This document shows, one piece after another, positions 5,580-54,806 of a stretch of 60,853 nt of DNA. Made by a program: the position numbers and the translations under genes. Source of the DNA: an uncultured Prochlorococcus sp. Its GTDB lineage: Bacteria; Cyanobacteriota; Cyanobacteriia; PCC-6307; Cyanobiaceae. Where the stretch lies: the NCBI GenBank assembly GCA_902587615.1, contig CACILY010000003.1, positions 1-60,853 of the forward strand, read 5' to 3'. Positions within the stretch are counted from its first letter, which is position 1. The number at the start of each line of letters is the position of its first letter. Below the pieces are notes generated by a model that had not been told where the DNA came from, did not search any database, and saw only the letters and a program-made list of their open reading frames with translations.

Positions 5580-5861
5580 TTAAAGAGGAATTGCTTCAGA
5601 AACATATGCAACACCTCCATAATAACTTAAAGTTGACTTTATATTTTCTCTAATTTGATCAATTATTTCCTGCTCACAAAAAACAATTACATGTGCATTG
5701 GATCCAAATCCAGTAAATTCCATATCTTCCGTAACTACTCTTTCAGGGCCTCTTCCTGTGGCATGTTTCATTACTGTATAACCAGGTGCCTTCGCATTCT
5801 CTAATGCAGTTAAAACAGCATCTAACTCTCGTTCACTAAAAATTAAGTCTAGTCTTTTCAT
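5580..5861 (-). CDS. sbtB: PII-like carbon regulator SbtB
   Basis: A 93-residue PII-superfamily protein, last gene of the bicA-sbtA-sbtB run and 12 bases after sbtA. SbtB binds adenine nucleotides (cAMP, AMP, ADP, ATP) and controls the bicarbonate transporter SbtA. Visible features are the N-terminal strand-helix MKRLDLIFSERELDAVLTAL, a T-loop-like GRGPERVVTEDMEFTGFGSN segment, and the C-terminal strand VIVFCEQEIIDQIRENI. It stops at SEAIPL and has no C-terminal CGPxGC redox loop, the R-loop found in Synechocystis SbtB of about 110 residues. Identity rests on fold-like motifs plus location directly after sbtA. Confidence 0.88.
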   Translation of the reverse strand: MKRLDLIFSERELDAVLTALENAKAPGYTVMKHATGRGPERVVTEDMEFTGFGSNAHVIVFCEQEIIDQIRENIKSTLSYYGGVAYVSEAIPL

Positions 5862-5873
5862 TTGATTAATCCA

Positions 5874-6869
5874 TTAACTAACTGTAGGAATTAATTTATT
5901 CACTAAACTCATATATATCGGAATTCCGACAATAATATTAAATGGAAAAGTTAACCCAAGTGTTGTAGAAATATAGTAGCTAGATTTAGCTTCTGGAACT
6001 GTCATCCTCATTGCGGCTGGTACTGCTAAATATGAAGCACTGGCACATAAAACAACGAATAAAAGTGCGTTACCTGGACCTAGCGATAATGCTTTTGCCA
6101 TTAGAACACCAAGAAATGCGTTAAAAATAGGCATCAATACGGCAAAGCATATTAAGAAAGAACCTGCTTTCCTTAATCTAGGAAGTCTTTGGGCCGCGAC
6201 GATTCCCATATCTAAGAGGAAAAAACATTCGGCCCCATAAAATAATTTGCCCGTAAATGGCTGCATTTTTTCCACTCCGGCAGGGTTATTGGTTGCTGTA
6301 AGGAATCCAATTAAAAGGCTGCCAAGTAGTAAATATACAGATCCATTCAACATTGATTCATGTAGTATTGAACCTAATTTCATTGGCTTTCTATGAGGTC
6401 TATTTTTTGGAGCAGCAATTTTTACTAGTAGCAGACCAACAATGATTGCAGGCGATTCCATTAATGCCAATGCTGCAACCATAAAACCATCAAAGTGAAT
6501 GCTCTGACTCTCTAGAAAACTCTCTGCAGTTATAAATGTTACGGCACTAATTGATCCATAAGCAGCTGCAATTGCTGCTGAATTAAATACATCAAATTTC
6601 AGGCGAAGTATAATAAAGCAAATCAATGGTATTACAAGAGACATTAATATCGCTGCTCCAACGGTAGGTATTACTCCTCCTGTAAAACCACTTTTTTCAA
6701 GCTCAATTCCTCCTTTAAATCCAATAGCAAGTAATAGATATAAAGAAAATAGTTTTGGTAAAGGTGCAGGTATCTCTAAATCAGAACGTAATAGAACTGC
6801 AATAGTTCCTAAAAAGAAAAATAAAATTGGTGGCGATAAAACGTTTTGAAGTATTAAATTAGCTTCCAT
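5874..6869 (-). CDS. sbtA: Sodium-dependent bicarbonate transporter SbtA
   Basis: A 331-residue polytopic membrane protein of the SbtA (DUF897) family, high-affinity Na+/HCO3- symporter of the cyanobacterial CO2-concentrating mechanism, expected in the cytoplasmic membrane. It has about ten hydrophobic segments in two inverted halves, each containing a family-typical motif: AAAYGSISAVTFITAESFLE in the first and VLCASASYLAVPAAMRMTVP in the second. A hydrophilic loop rich in lysine and arginine (KIAAPKNRPHRKPMKLGS) separates the halves. It is flanked by bicA (42 bases upstream) and sbtB (12 bases downstream), which fits co-expression of two bicarbonate transporters and their regulator. Confidence 0.93.
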   Translation of the reverse strand: MEANLILQNVLSPPILFFFLGTIAVLLRSDLEIPAPLPKLFSLYLLLAIGFKGGIELEKSGFTGGVIPTVGAAILMSLVIPLICFIILRLKFDVFNSAAIAAAYGSISAVTFITAESFLESQSIHFDGFMVAALALMESPAIIVGLLLVKIAAPKNRPHRKPMKLGSILHESMLNGSVYLLLGSLLIGFLTATNNPAGVEKMQPFTGKLFYGAECFFLLDMGIVAAQRLPRLRKAGSFLICFAVLMPIFNAFLGVLMAKALSLGPGNALLFVVLCASASYLAVPAAMRMTVPEAKSSYYISTTLGLTFPFNIIVGIPIYMSLVNKLIPTVS

Positions 6870-38094: not shown

Positions 38095-38676
38095 TCAGCG
38101 TAATTCGGTTACTTGATCGGCCATCTCAAGAATTCCATTAGGAATAGAAGGCCCTGTAAGGATGATATCGGTTGCGCAGGGTTTGTTTTGAAGCGTTGCA
38201 ATTAAGTCACTTTCTTCGATGTATCCAAATCTGATTGCAAGGCCAATTTCATCAATAACTAATTTTTCAATCAGCCCTAATGAAAGTTGTTGTTTGCATA
38301 CATCCCAAATGGCTTGAATTTTTTGAAGAAAATAGTCCTTTGAATTTTCTGTGTTCAGCATACTTTCAGTTATGCAACAGGAAAAATCAGGTCTTAACCA
38401 ATTCAGTCGGCCACAAAGACTAATTCCTTTAGTAGGTCCTTGATTAACTCCACCTCGTAATAACTGAGCCACTAAAACCCGACTACCTAGACCTGCAGAT
38501 CTTATTGCTTCACTAAGGACTCCTGAAAAACTACCTCTAGCCTGTCCTGTATGTATTTGAATTTGTCCTTGAGTTGAAACTATATGGAGAGGATGCTGGG
38601 GTATAGGTTCTACAACTCGTAAATTCTCACGATCTCTAAAAAACGGCTCTTCAATTGACTTAATACTTACAGTCAT
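38095..38676 (-). CDS. Cob(I)alamin adenosyltransferase homologue (CobA/CobO-like) with degenerate P-loop
   Basis: A 193-residue protein from ATG at 38676 (a TTG lies one codon earlier). The core HTGQARGSFSGVLSEAIRSA, then GLGSRVLVAQLLRGG, aligns with the CobA/CobO nucleotide-binding region TGxGKGKTTAALGLALRAxG, but the P-loop lysine and the Thr/Ser pair are replaced (G-Q-A-R-G-S-F-S). The rest, including VIDEIGLAIRFGYIE (the Walker B-like DEI) and DIILTGPSIPNGILEMADQV, matches well. CobA/CobO transfers adenosyl from ATP to cob(I)alamin. Whether the substituted protein still does so is unclear. First gene of an operon-like run with dcd and thyX; divergent from ntcA. Confidence 0.8.
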   Translation of the reverse strand: MTVSIKSIEEPFFRDRENLRVVEPIPQHPLHIVSTQGQIQIHTGQARGSFSGVLSEAIRSAGLGSRVLVAQLLRGGVNQGPTKGISLCGRLNWLRPDFSCCITESMLNTENSKDYFLQKIQAIWDVCKQQLSLGLIEKLVIDEIGLAIRFGYIEESDLIATLQNKPCATDIILTGPSIPNGILEMADQVTELR

Positions 38677-38746
38677 CAAATCTTTAAGGAATCAAGTTCA
38701 TATATAGTTTCAATCTAGCGTCGCTTAACCACTTCACAATAAATTT

Positions 38747-38764
38747 AACACTATCCATAGTGTT
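38747..38764. promoter_or_regulatory. Perfect 18-base palindrome between cobA/O-like gene and ntcA
   Basis: Arms AACACTA and TAGTGTT around TCCA, in the 264-base gap between two divergent genes. The shape and position suggest a regulator binding site or a leader hairpin of the minus-strand operon or of ntcA. It does not match the NtcA consensus (GTA-N8-TAC). No T-run on either side, so a terminator is unlikely. Confidence 0.5.
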
Positions 38765-38940
38765 GTTATGATTATTTTAATTTTCTGATTTGTCGAGCTT
38801 TCTTAATTCACAGGTATTTTTGTGCAAATATTAAATTGTCTGCATGTCTGATTAATAAGGTATCAAGGTTTAAAAAAGTCACCATGGCTACATTTGCTTT
38901 CATACTGCCAAATTAATGTTCGGACATCCAATTTGAAAAC

Positions 38941-39681
38941 GTGGCCGATTCCAGTAGGGGCTTCACTAGGTACTCCAGCACAAAAGCCTCCCAATTTGCT
39001 GGCAATAAGCCTTCGACATCAACAGAGCTTGATCGTCAATCAACATTAATGGATGTAATTAAATCTCTTGATGGAGCAAATACTGAAGTAGTTGATAGAT
39101 CTAAAACCATTTTTTTTCCTGGAGACCCTGCCGAAAGAGTTTATTTAATAAGGAGAGGTGCTGTTCGACTTTCAAGAGTGTATGAGTCAGGAGAAGAGAT
39201 TACAGTAGCTTTATTAAGAGAAAATAGTCTTTTCGGGGTACTTTCACTGCTTACTGGGCATAGATCAGATCGGTTCTATCACGCCGTAGCCTTTACGAGA
39301 GTTGAAATGATGACTGCACCTGCTGCTTCTGTTAGAAAAGCAATTGAAGAAGATACAGGCGTGGGATTATTACTGCTTCAAGGTTTGTCAACTAGGATTT
39401 TGCAAACTGAGACGATGATTGAAACTCTGACTCATAGAGATATGTCATCGCGTTTAGTAAGTTTCCTGCTTGTCCTTTGCAGAGATTTTGGCGTACCAGA
39501 AGAGAAAGGAATCACGATTGATCTACGACTTTCTCATCAAGCTATTGCTGAAGCCATAGGGTCAACAAGAGTAACTATTACACGTTTATTAGGGGATTTG
39601 AAAAGTATAGGATTACTGCAAATTGAGCGTAAAAAAATAACCATATTTGATCCTATTGCCCTGGCAAAACGTTTCAACTGA
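38941..39681 (+). CDS. ntcA: Global nitrogen regulator NtcA
   Basis: CRP/FNR-type transcription factor of 246 residues that activates nitrogen-assimilation genes in response to 2-oxoglutarate. The effector domain contains [20 protein letters not shown] and [20 protein letters not shown]; a long dimerisation helix follows; the helix-turn-helix near 195-218 is [20 protein letters not shown], the NtcA recognition helix. GTG start at 38941 with an N-terminal 35-residue polar extension. Upstream, GTATCAAGGTTTAA (38860-38873) is one base from the NtcA consensus and could be an autoregulatory site, but the nearest -10-like sequence is too far for confidence. Confidence 0.97.
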
Positions 39682-52334: not shown

Positions 52335-52410
52335 AGGTTAAATGTAGAACTAAATTCATTTATTAATCTTGATTTTGTCGAGTATTATTCATGATCCCAA
52401 GAGCTTGCAA

Positions 52411-53184
52411 ATGTTAAAGATTGGAGATCCACTTTTAAAGTTTGAAAGTTTGCATGAAGGCATTTTACTGAAACGTTATAAGAGGTTTTTGGCAGATGTG
52501 GAACTTGATAATGGAGAAATAGTTACAGCACATTGTGCTAACACTGGACCTATGAGGGGAGTTTTGAATGTAGGAGGTCGTGTCAGGCTTAAATATGCTC
52601 CATCACCTACGCGGAAATTATCTTGGTCTTGGGAGCAAGCGCAAGTCTTAAACTTGAAGGAATCTTTGTGTTGGGTGGGTGTTAACACCTTTTTGCCTAA
52701 CACTCTTGTGCTAATGGCTATTAAGGCTGGTTGTTTACAAAAAGAATTAGGATTGATTTCAGATATTAAAAAAGAAGTTGTTTATGGAATTAATAGAAGA
52801 AGTAGAATTGATTTGCTTTTATACCCTGAGTGTCAAAATTTTGATCAACGTAATATTTATATTGAAGTAAAAAATACTACATGGACTCAAGGAGAATTAG
52901 CCCTTTTCCCAGACACAGTAACCACAAGAGGTCAAAAGCATTTAACTGAATTAATTAATGTAATTCCTAACTCAAGAGCTGTATTAATACCTTGTATAAG
53001 TAGAGACGATACAAAGGCTTTTGCTCCAGGAGATTCAGCTGATAAAGAATATGGAAACTTATTTAGGATTGCAGTAAAAAAAGGAGTGGAAATAATACCT
53101 GTTTGTTTTGGGTTTCATAAAGACTATATTTCGTGGCAGGGTATTCGTCCGTTTAACAACTATCAAGTTCTACAAAGGGCTTAA
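52411..53184 (+). CDS. sfsA: SfsA family protein (sugar fermentation stimulation)
   Basis: A 257-residue SfsA homologue. Typical segments are LLKRYKRFLADVELDNGEIV, HCANTGPMRGVLNVGGRVRL, and the nuclease-like IYIEVKNTTWTQGELALFPD with EVKN, where restriction-endonuclease-like folds bind metal. Start is ATG at 52411, matching the short N terminus of the family; a TTG frame to 52369 would add 14 residues. SfsA was first seen as an E. coli maltose regulator; its true activity is unclear, and the nuclease-like fold suggests nucleic-acid binding. Confidence 0.92.
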   Translation: MLKIGDPLLKFESLHEGILLKRYKRFLADVELDNGEIVTAHCANTGPMRGVLNVGGRVRLKYAPSPTRKLSWSWEQAQVLNLKESLCWVGVNTFLPNTLVLMAIKAGCLQKELGLISDIKKEVVYGINRRSRIDLLLYPECQNFDQRNIYIEVKNTTWTQGELALFPDTVTTRGQKHLTELINVIPNSRAVLIPCISRDDTKAFAPGDSADKEYGNLFRIAVKKGVEIIPVCFGFHKDYISWQGIRPFNNYQVLQRA

Positions 53185-53204
53185 ATTTATTGAATTCATA
53201 TTTG

Positions 53205-53218
53205 GTAGCAACAAATAC
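53205..53218 (+). promoter_or_regulatory. NtcA binding site upstream of amt1
   Basis: GTA-GCAACAAA-TAC: a perfect GTA-N8-TAC NtcA box. A -10-like CATAGT (53241-53246, 4 of 6 to TATAAT) begins 22 bases after the box, the spacing of NtcA-activated promoters, and the amt1 ATG is about 57 bases further on. Only the box and spacing are seen; binding is inferred from the known class of promoter and from ntcA being in the same window. Confidence 0.8.
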
Positions 53219-53240
53219 TTGCAGATGATCAGTTTGAGTA

Positions 53241-53246
53241 CATAGT
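53241..53246 (+). promoter_or_regulatory. Candidate -10 element of amt1
   Basis: CATAGT, one of the weaker matches to TATAAT, at the spacing expected downstream of the NtcA box. No -35 hexamer is needed in this promoter class because NtcA replaces it. Position is a guess by spacing. Confidence 0.5.
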
Positions 53247-53303
53247 GATACATGTAATACCTGGTTTTTAAATGCCAGAGATCTCGCAGTTCAGCAATTT
53301 TTT

Positions 53304-54806
53304 ATGACTACTGCTTTGCATGCTGCTCCTTCTCGACGAAATCATCGTCGACTACAGGAAGCCAGTCTTCTAAATGGTCCAATGCTTTTAGTGAAAAGCA
53401 TTCGTGGGTTAAGAACAAATCGTGCTTTGATTTGGCTAGCAACCGTTCCTTTAGCTCTTCTGGGCTTAGGTGTTTTTAATTTTGCTGCACAAGCAGAAGT
53501 AGGTTTGTCTGATTTGACAGGGGCTCAGGCCGCAGCATTTTTGGCTGACAATCTTTGGTTATTTATTGCAACCATTCTTGTGATTTTTATGAATGCAGGA
53601 TTTGCAATGGTTGAAGCCGGAATGTGTAGGCAAAAAAATGCAGTTAATATTCTTGCGAAAAATCTTTTTGTCTTTGCTCTTGCAGTAACTGCCTATTGGT
53701 TTATTGGATATTCCTTAATGTATGGAGGATCCGTTATAGATGGATGGGTTTATTTTCAGGGTCTTTTTGTTGATCCTGATCCTTCAGGAGCAATTGAATG
53801 TGCTGCTGGTCTGGCAGGGGAAGGTTGCTCTCAATTAGTTCCATCAGTTGATTTTCTTTTTCAGGCAGCATTTGCTGGTACTGCAGCAACCATTGTTTCT
53901 GGACTTGTTGCTGAGAGAGTTAAATTTGGAGAATTTGTTGTTTTCTCATTAGTTTTAACTGCTTTTATATATCCAATTGCTGGCAGTTGGCAATGGAATG
54001 GTGGTTGGCTATCAGAACTTGGATTCATTGACTTTGCTGGATCATCAATCGTTCATTCAGTTGGTGGATGGGCTGGACTCGTAGGAGCAATGCTTCTTGG
54101 CCCTCGTATTGGAAAATTTGTTGATGGCAAAGCACAGGCAATGCCAGGACACAATATGGCTATAGCTACTTTGGGAGCTTTGGTTTTATGGATTGGCTGG
54201 TATGGCTTTAATCCTGGATCAGAATTAGCCATGGATCAATATGTTGCTTACGTTGCAGTTACCACTACTTTGGCTGCTGCTGGAGGCGCAATAGCCGCAA
54301 CAATTATTTCTACTGTTACTTCAGGTAAGCCAGATTTGACCATGATTATTAATGGAATCCTTGCTGGTTTAGTCAGTATTACTGCTGGTTGTGGGAATAT
54401 GACTTTCTCAGGATCATGGATCGCTGGATTTGTAGGTGGAGTAATTGTTGTTTTCTCAGTATCTGCTTTAGATGCGGCTGGTATTGATGACCCTGTAGGA
54501 GCATTCTCAGTTCATGGTGTATGCGGAGTTTGGGGAACTTTAGTTATAGGTTTATGGGGGGTTGAAGGAATGGATCCAGGAGTTGCTGGCATTGGATTAT
54601 TTAATGGCGGTGGACTTTCTCAATTCCTAATTCAGGCTCTTGGGGCAGCTGCTTATGGTCTTTGGACTGTCGCAACTTGTTGGATCGCATGGTCAATTAT
54701 TGGTGGTTTCTTTGGAGGTATACGTGTCTCCGAAGAAGAAGAGTTACAAGGGTTAGATGTAGGAGAGCATGGAATGGAGGCTTATCCAGATTTTGCTTCT
54801 AGTTAG
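53304..54806 (+). CDS. amt1: Ammonium transporter Amt1
   Basis: A 500-residue Amt/Rh-family ammonium channel in the cytoplasmic membrane. The N-terminal 60 residues include a hydrophobic segment (LIWLATVPLALLGLGVFNFA) that may be a signal or first helix; the pore helices follow with NAGFAMVEAGMCRQKNAVNI, FAGSSIVHSVGGWAGLVGAM and DDPVGAFSVHGVCGVWGTL, carrying the paired pore histidines. It ends with a cytoplasmic tail EEEELQGLDVGEHG typical of the family. Directly behind a perfect NtcA box, and followed by its own terminator, so probably a monocistronic nitrogen-regulated gene. Confidence 0.96.
   Translation: MTTALHAAPSRRNHRRLQEASLLNGPMLLVKSIRGLRTNRALIWLATVPLALLGLGVFNFAAQAEVGLSDLTGAQAAAFLADNLWLFIATILVIFMNAGFAMVEAGMCRQKNAVNILAKNLFVFALAVTAYWFIGYSLMYGGSVIDGWVYFQGLFVDPDPSGAIECAAGLAGEGCSQLVPSVDFLFQAAFAGTAATIVSGLVAERVKFGEFVVFSLVLTAFIYPIAGSWQWNGGWLSELGFIDFAGSSIVHSVGGWAGLVGAMLLGPRIGKFVDGKAQAMPGHNMAIATLGALVLWIGWYGFNPGSELAMDQYVAYVAVTTTLAAAGGAIAATIISTVTSGKPDLTMIINGILAGLVSITAGCGNMTFSGSWIAGFVGGVIVVFSVSALDAAGIDDPVGAFSVHGVCGVWGTLVIGLWGVEGMDPGVAGIGLFNGGGLSQFLIQALGAAAYGLWTVATCWIAWSIIGGFFGGIRVSEEEELQGLDVGEHGMEAYPDFASS

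Follow-up and report, generated by a model that had tools for sequence, protein, structure and literature searches.

The amt1 upstream region of an uncultured Prochlorococcus: a probable NtcA-activated promoter and a candidate stem-loop in the predicted leader

The NtcA-activated promoter of cyanobacteria, which resembles the class II promoters of CRP, has an established form in which a GTAN8TAC box is centred near -40.5 and combined with a TAN3T -10 element (PMC9430850). The sequence GTAN8/9TAC was reported to be specific for Prochlorococcus NtcA, and 2-oxoglutarate raised the affinity of this protein for the glnA promoter, with SS120 and MED4 weaker than MIT9313 (PMC5767323). The amt1 promoter of Synechocystis PCC 6803 is NtcA-dependent in vitro, where the gene was transcribed with NtcA and 2-oxoglutarate (PMC2758279). 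In Synechococcus WH7803, nitrogen starvation raised amt1 about 46-fold (PMC9430850), whereas the Prochlorococcus promoter described here is known from its sequence alone. The published accounts of amt1 regulation in Prochlorococcus, as represented in the sources cited here, conflict: the gene was reported to be constitutive in PCC 9511 (Lindell 2002, cited in PMC6392094) and to increase markedly in MED4 (Tolonen 2006, cited in PMC5607370), where its transcript was at least 10 times as abundant as those of other nitrogen genes and had a low diel swing (PMC2663038). The amt1 transcript of MED4 was also among the longest-lived protein-coding transcripts, with a half-life of 17.3 min by qRT-PCR, compared with a median of 2.4 (PMC2897979; repeated in PMC3898218).

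The window, a stretch of 60,853 nucleotides from an uncultured Prochlorococcus, belongs to a 1.1 Mb assembly that is 60% complete. The features considered here are the following.

38941-39681, + strand: ntcA, global nitrogen regulator, 246 aa (TIGR03697, 364 bits, cut-off 245)
52369-53184, + strand: sfsA, upstream neighbour of amt1 (TIGR00230, 201 bits), ending 21 bases before the box
53205-53218, + strand: NtcA box GTAGCAACAAATAC, centre 53211.5, by direct reading
53219-53240, + strand: spacer between the NtcA box and the -10 hexamer, exactly 22 bases
53241-53246, + strand: -10 hexamer CATAGT, of the CAN3T type
53252/53253, + strand: predicted amt1 transcription start, at the box centre +40.5 or +41.5, by arithmetic only
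53261-53278, + strand: leader stem-loop, arms CTGGT (53261-53265) and GCCAG (53274-53278), loop of 8
53286-53289, + strand: GCAG leader motif, about 18 bases before the ATG
53304-54806, + strand: amt1, ammonium transporter, 500 aa (TIGR00836, 409 bits, cut-off 343)

An earlier note on this DNA had described a perfect NtcA box before amt1, followed by CATAGT after a gap of 22 bases. Direct reading confirmed both the letters of the box and the exact gap. The box and the -10 hexamer sit between sfsA and amt1, whose ATG is at 53304, and, counted from the predicted start, the leader would have about 51 bases. The locus shares with the NtcA-activated consensus, GTAN8TAC-N21-24-TAN3T, its core, its spacing, the missing -35 element and a nitrogen-related target, and its genome encodes NtcA. 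It differs in its -10 element, CAN3T, and in that the conservation of letters is concentrated in the distal half (GTANCAA). CATAGT thus lacks the first T of canonical TAN3T, with A2 and T6 present at the spacing of 22; the identical hexamer stands at the same place in one relative (L028), and CATATT is found in three others (L003, L004 and L009). The first letters of the -10 element also vary in the NtcA promoters predicted for WH7803 (PMC9430850).

Orthologues of Amt1 were found in 58 of the 60 relatives searched. Among the loci listed, the nearest named relatives by Amt1 were Prochlorococcus single-cell genomes, for example AG-409-P19 (89% identical). The genome carrying L028 (G002) has the same genus code as the window, yet its Amt1 was only 75% identical and fell on a distant branch, while two genomes with other genus codes, G028 and G011, encode Amt1 proteins 91% and 87% identical to that of the window. 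The G002 mismatch is possibly due to gene transfer or a grouping artefact.

Perfect GTAN8TAC cores were common. The window has 13 compared with 6.4 expected, a number reached in 2 of 100 shuffles, and the whole assembly has 159, so a perfect core by itself is weak evidence. One of the 13, at 53238-53251, overlaps the -10 hexamer. Scored with the amt1 matrix described below, it ranked 1215 on the + strand and reached 9.1 bits on the - strand, and no counterpart was seen at that offset in the relatives listed; for these two reasons it is treated here as a chance occurrence. Since the six-letter core alone was not beyond chance, the amt1 upstream regions of relatives were gathered. The best 30 loci from the 60 relatives were combined with 80 named loci, a region with only 29 bases upstream (L036) and a duplicate of the window (L001) were left out, and the 109 usable regions were reduced to 49 non-redundant picocyanobacterial ones, the window included, by collapsing near-copies (at least 70% identical).

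All 49 regions had a core matching at least five of the six letters within -140 to -66, as against a mean of 8.1 and a maximum of 16 in shuffled sequences, and in 21 the core was perfect (shuffles: mean 0.28, largest 3). Six control stretches, comprising 48 or 49 loci each, gave 5 to 23 cores with at least five letters and 0 to 10 perfect ones. The highest counts, 23 and 10 of 49, came from the stretch at -700, which falls in the region of the upstream neighbour, so cores can recur in conserved coding sequence. The downstream element was similarly fixed in position: an xAN3T hexamer occurred at a spacing of 22 in 35 regions, at 21 in three and at 24 in seven. It was found at a spacing of 22 or 23 in 45 regions, or 46 when the aligned site of L033, GTATCAACACGAAC at -102, is taken as its box. 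T was the first letter of the hexamer at spacing 22 in none of the 49 orthologues.

GTA, A12 and C13 were kept in all 48 other genomes, leaving position 11, the proximal T, as the only varying letter of the core; it is T in 21 of the 49 boxes, that of the window among them. The boxes had been chosen for at least five core matches. The six core columns are biased by this selection, but it does not decide which of them varies: all 27 core misses fell on position 11. Most boxes have CAA after GTAN and are preceded by T-rich letters, and the half-sites and the -10 spacing are kept among relatives while the N8 letters change. The proximal T was considered as the mark of a stronger site and dropped, as it tracks G+C content and clade: TAC was found in 20 of 27 low-GC loci vs 2 of 22 high-GC loci (counted before the L033 box was reassigned), in 14 of the 15 members of the window's own branch, and, with six changes on the Amt1 tree, almost exclusively in low-GC Prochlorococcus branches. 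The description of the box as perfect is right as to its letters, but its perfection is not what convinces, since 28 of the 49 orthologous sites are without the proximal T and look equally conserved.

A matrix built from the amt1 sites of the 48 other genomes was scored over the window. The box at 53205 ranked first (16.7 bits, the next 13.0), as did the box together with its -10 element (28.3 bits, the next 11.7). Scored apart, the N8 letters ranked 248 and the downstream part 592, so the signal needs the half-sites. No sigma-70 -35/-10 pair was found in 53100-53420, as expected for an activator-dependent promoter. The amt1-derived pattern TNNGTANMAANNNNTAC matched 11 times in the assembly and is not enriched, since a reversed-pattern control also gave 11 (5 forward, 6 reverse). 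Of the 11 matches, one each precedes amt1, glnA, nirA and a gene for a group-2 type sigma factor; five fall inside long open frames and two where no gene is assigned. The glnA site (L116, 1504-1517) reads GTACTGGTTGATAC-N22-TAGGTT, the canonical layout, and on that layout is an internal positive control. The NtcA-like cores before nirA, which encodes ferredoxin-nitrite reductase, and before the sigma factor, of the RpoD family, are at 1504-1517 of L120 and of L121. ntcA is often autoregulated; within the 300 bases upstream of ntcA in the window (38641-38941), no perfect GTAN8TAC core was present.

The regulator itself is intact. NtcA of the window aligned without gaps to the solved structures 2xgx and 8h3v over residues 48-245, including the DNA-binding helix, and PipX is present in the assembly. 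The earlier note had drawn attention to ntcA lying about 14 kb away in the same window; the distance is 13.5 kb, but it has no bearing on the case because NtcA acts in trans. The 60% complete assembly also contains a short P-II family protein (5589-5861 of the window, - strand, Pfam 50.6 bits), its sole P-II match, for which no NCBIfam match was found. The gene adjoins an apparent bicarbonate transporter gene (5874-6869), and we take the pair to resemble SbtB beside SbtA.

Several observations point to the layout of an NtcA-activated promoter, as had been claimed, 1) the element is present in 49 of 49 upstream regions, 2) it has the top matrix rank in the window and 3) NtcA and PipX are encoded in the assembly. 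On this sequence evidence the locus is very probably the NtcA-activated promoter of amt1, and as such a new instance of a known, ordinary and widely shared promoter type. The binding of NtcA, activation and the start site at amt1 are what we infer from it.

The predicted leader has a second conserved property. In the window, the stem-loop at 53261-53278 has 5 pairs and a calculated energy of -5.4 kcal/mol and begins 8 or 9 bases past the predicted start. Over the 40 bases that follow the -10 element, the mean best stem of the 49 leaders was -6.15 kcal/mol, as against -2.35 in shuffles, and none of 200 shuffle sets was as low; a stem of -3 kcal/mol or better was present in 44 leaders (shuffles: 15.8, largest 23). 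When 36-base segments were slid along the 49 amt1 loci, the stem signal peaked at box +48 with a Z of -14.0, and at offsets of -120 to +24 from the box no Z went beyond -2.3. In 24 ntcA upstream regions, which were not anchored on a start, there was no such peak, the largest upstream Z being -2.4. As a caution, the first amt1 codons also form strong stems, above shuffles (box +132, Z -7.2; coding +30 to +70; 53331-53350 in the window), perhaps as a result of repeated arginine codons.

The arms differ in their letters from genome to genome: CTGGT/GCCAG in the window and CTGGACT/GGTCCAG, GGCGG/CCGCC, AACAGG/CCTGTT and TGGATT/AATCCA elsewhere. Covariation was assessed in the sister clade, using 12 of the 14 rows of the branch (L017 and L021 left out) together with L030 and L067. 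In its 13 distinct rows, 79.8% of the alignment cells pair, G-U pairs included, and 13 cells had changed on both sides, as against 5.7 in shuffles (0 of 500 as high). The covariation score was 0.454, compared with at most 0.141 for slid versions, over which the stem was favoured by having been drawn by eye from L065. A set of 18 rows chosen by hand from the high-light-type loci gave a weaker signal (91.1% paired; score 0.127, and 0.107 after a slide of +3). Stems in the window's own branch were short, at -0.3 to -5.9 kcal/mol. RNAalifold, applied to a 19-row alignment of the window's own clade, returned only the three half-site pairs and no leader hairpin; it neither supports nor excludes the hairpin, as stems that differ in their letters do not stay in register in an alignment. 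As judged from these alignments, it is the pairing and not the letters that is conserved in the leader.

Other candidates were rejected. A known riboswitch or leader RNA is not indicated, as Rfam gave no match for 53150-53420 at E<=1 and none at gathering scores in the loci of five relatives. In 24 of the 49 leaders, the motif GCAG occurs within the final 40 bases (shuffles: mean 6.0, largest 11). Pairing of GCAG with the coding start to hide the ATG, an idea prompted by a predicted fold, was dropped because over the 49 leaders it exceeded neither shuffles (Z 1.9) nor swaps of leaders among genomes (9 of 100 swaps as high). The stabiliser motifs of Synechococcus PCC 7002 are not the same thing, being described as 3' terminators (PMC7406221).

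Several other readings of the locus were weighed. The abundance of perfect cores in the window and the assembly raises the question of whether one merely happens to stand 22 bases before an A-T hexamer, but the positional conservation and the matrix rank contradict this and make coincidence barely credible. Repression by NtcA through the core at 53238-53251, which is perfect and would block the -10 element if bound, is highly improbable given the low matrix scores of that core and the lack of a counterpart at its offset in the relatives listed. A more serious contender is an inherited but weakly used box, amt1 being in effect constitutive, kept high by basal promoter activity and by the stability of its mRNA, with NtcA adding little. 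The constitutive expression reported for PCC 9511 and the high transcript level, low diel swing and long half-life reported for MED4 would all fit, but a dead site would not be expected to keep its half-sites and -10 spacing while the N8 letters change, no NtcA-independent sigma-70 promoter was found in 53100-53420, and the increase cited for MED4 is also against it; we consider it rather unlikely. The conclusion of the earlier note that ammonium uptake is under direct nitrogen control can be kept as far as the NtcA site goes, but a site alone does not amount to strong ammonium control in this strain.

The inverted repeat in the leader could in turn be a DNA operator for another regulator instead of an RNA hairpin, since a position immediately past the start would suit a repressor. 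The arms, however, share no letters between genomes while the pairing, G-U included, is kept, and we regard an operator as improbable. The hairpin stands near the predicted 5' end, its letters vary and, in the window, no T run follows it. Together these features speak for a role of the RNA rather than for an operator or, in this case, for a terminator.

In other bacteria, 5' stem-loops are listed as a protection from cleavage by RNases (PMC7509114). Since the amt1 mRNA of MED4 is long-lived, we propose that the leader hairpin is a 5' stabiliser, by inference and by correlation with the MED4 half-life. The 5' stabiliser stem-loops of E. coli ompA and papA are alike in having a hairpin a few bases from the 5' end (predicted here) of a long-lived mRNA of the transporter or porin class, but the stem of the window has only 5 pairs, its start is predicted and the effect on amt1 half-life is putative. 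The hairpin is apparently undescribed so far: titles and the opening parts of abstracts mentioned no structure in the amt1 leader, with description elsewhere possible, as subscription literature was mostly outside the search.

The sequence of events would then be as follows. On nitrogen shortage, 2-oxoglutarate, and probably PipX, would stimulate the NtcA dimer, which would bind 53205-53218, standing in for a -35 element, and recruit RNA polymerase to the weak -10 element CATAGT. Transcription would begin near 53252/53253, and the resulting leader may fold into the small stem-loop close to its 5' end. The stem-loop may shield the mRNA from decay that depends on the 5' end, so that the protected amt1 transcript could stay high despite varying promoter firing. 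Extended to the picocyanobacteria, the tentative proposal, which could well prove wrong, is that a 5' stem-loop, maintained through compensatory changes, is common to the amt1 leaders of the whole family and gives amt1 one of the longest-lived mRNAs in cells whose other mRNAs last only minutes, with ammonium uptake set by both NtcA and RNA stability.

As far as it can be read from DNA, the promoter confirms that amt1 is under NtcA control in a Prochlorococcus lineage taken to be uncultured. That finding is correct but ordinary, and what merits an experiment is the conserved stem-loop of the leader. Prochlorococcus is among the most abundant photosynthetic cells. Two layers of control, an NtcA promoter and the stability of the leader RNA, would explain why its amt1 can look constitutive despite the conserved box and, if the hairpin does stabilise the mRNA, there would be a concrete reason for the conflict between accounts of amt1 as an NtcA target and as a constitutive gene in Prochlorococcus.
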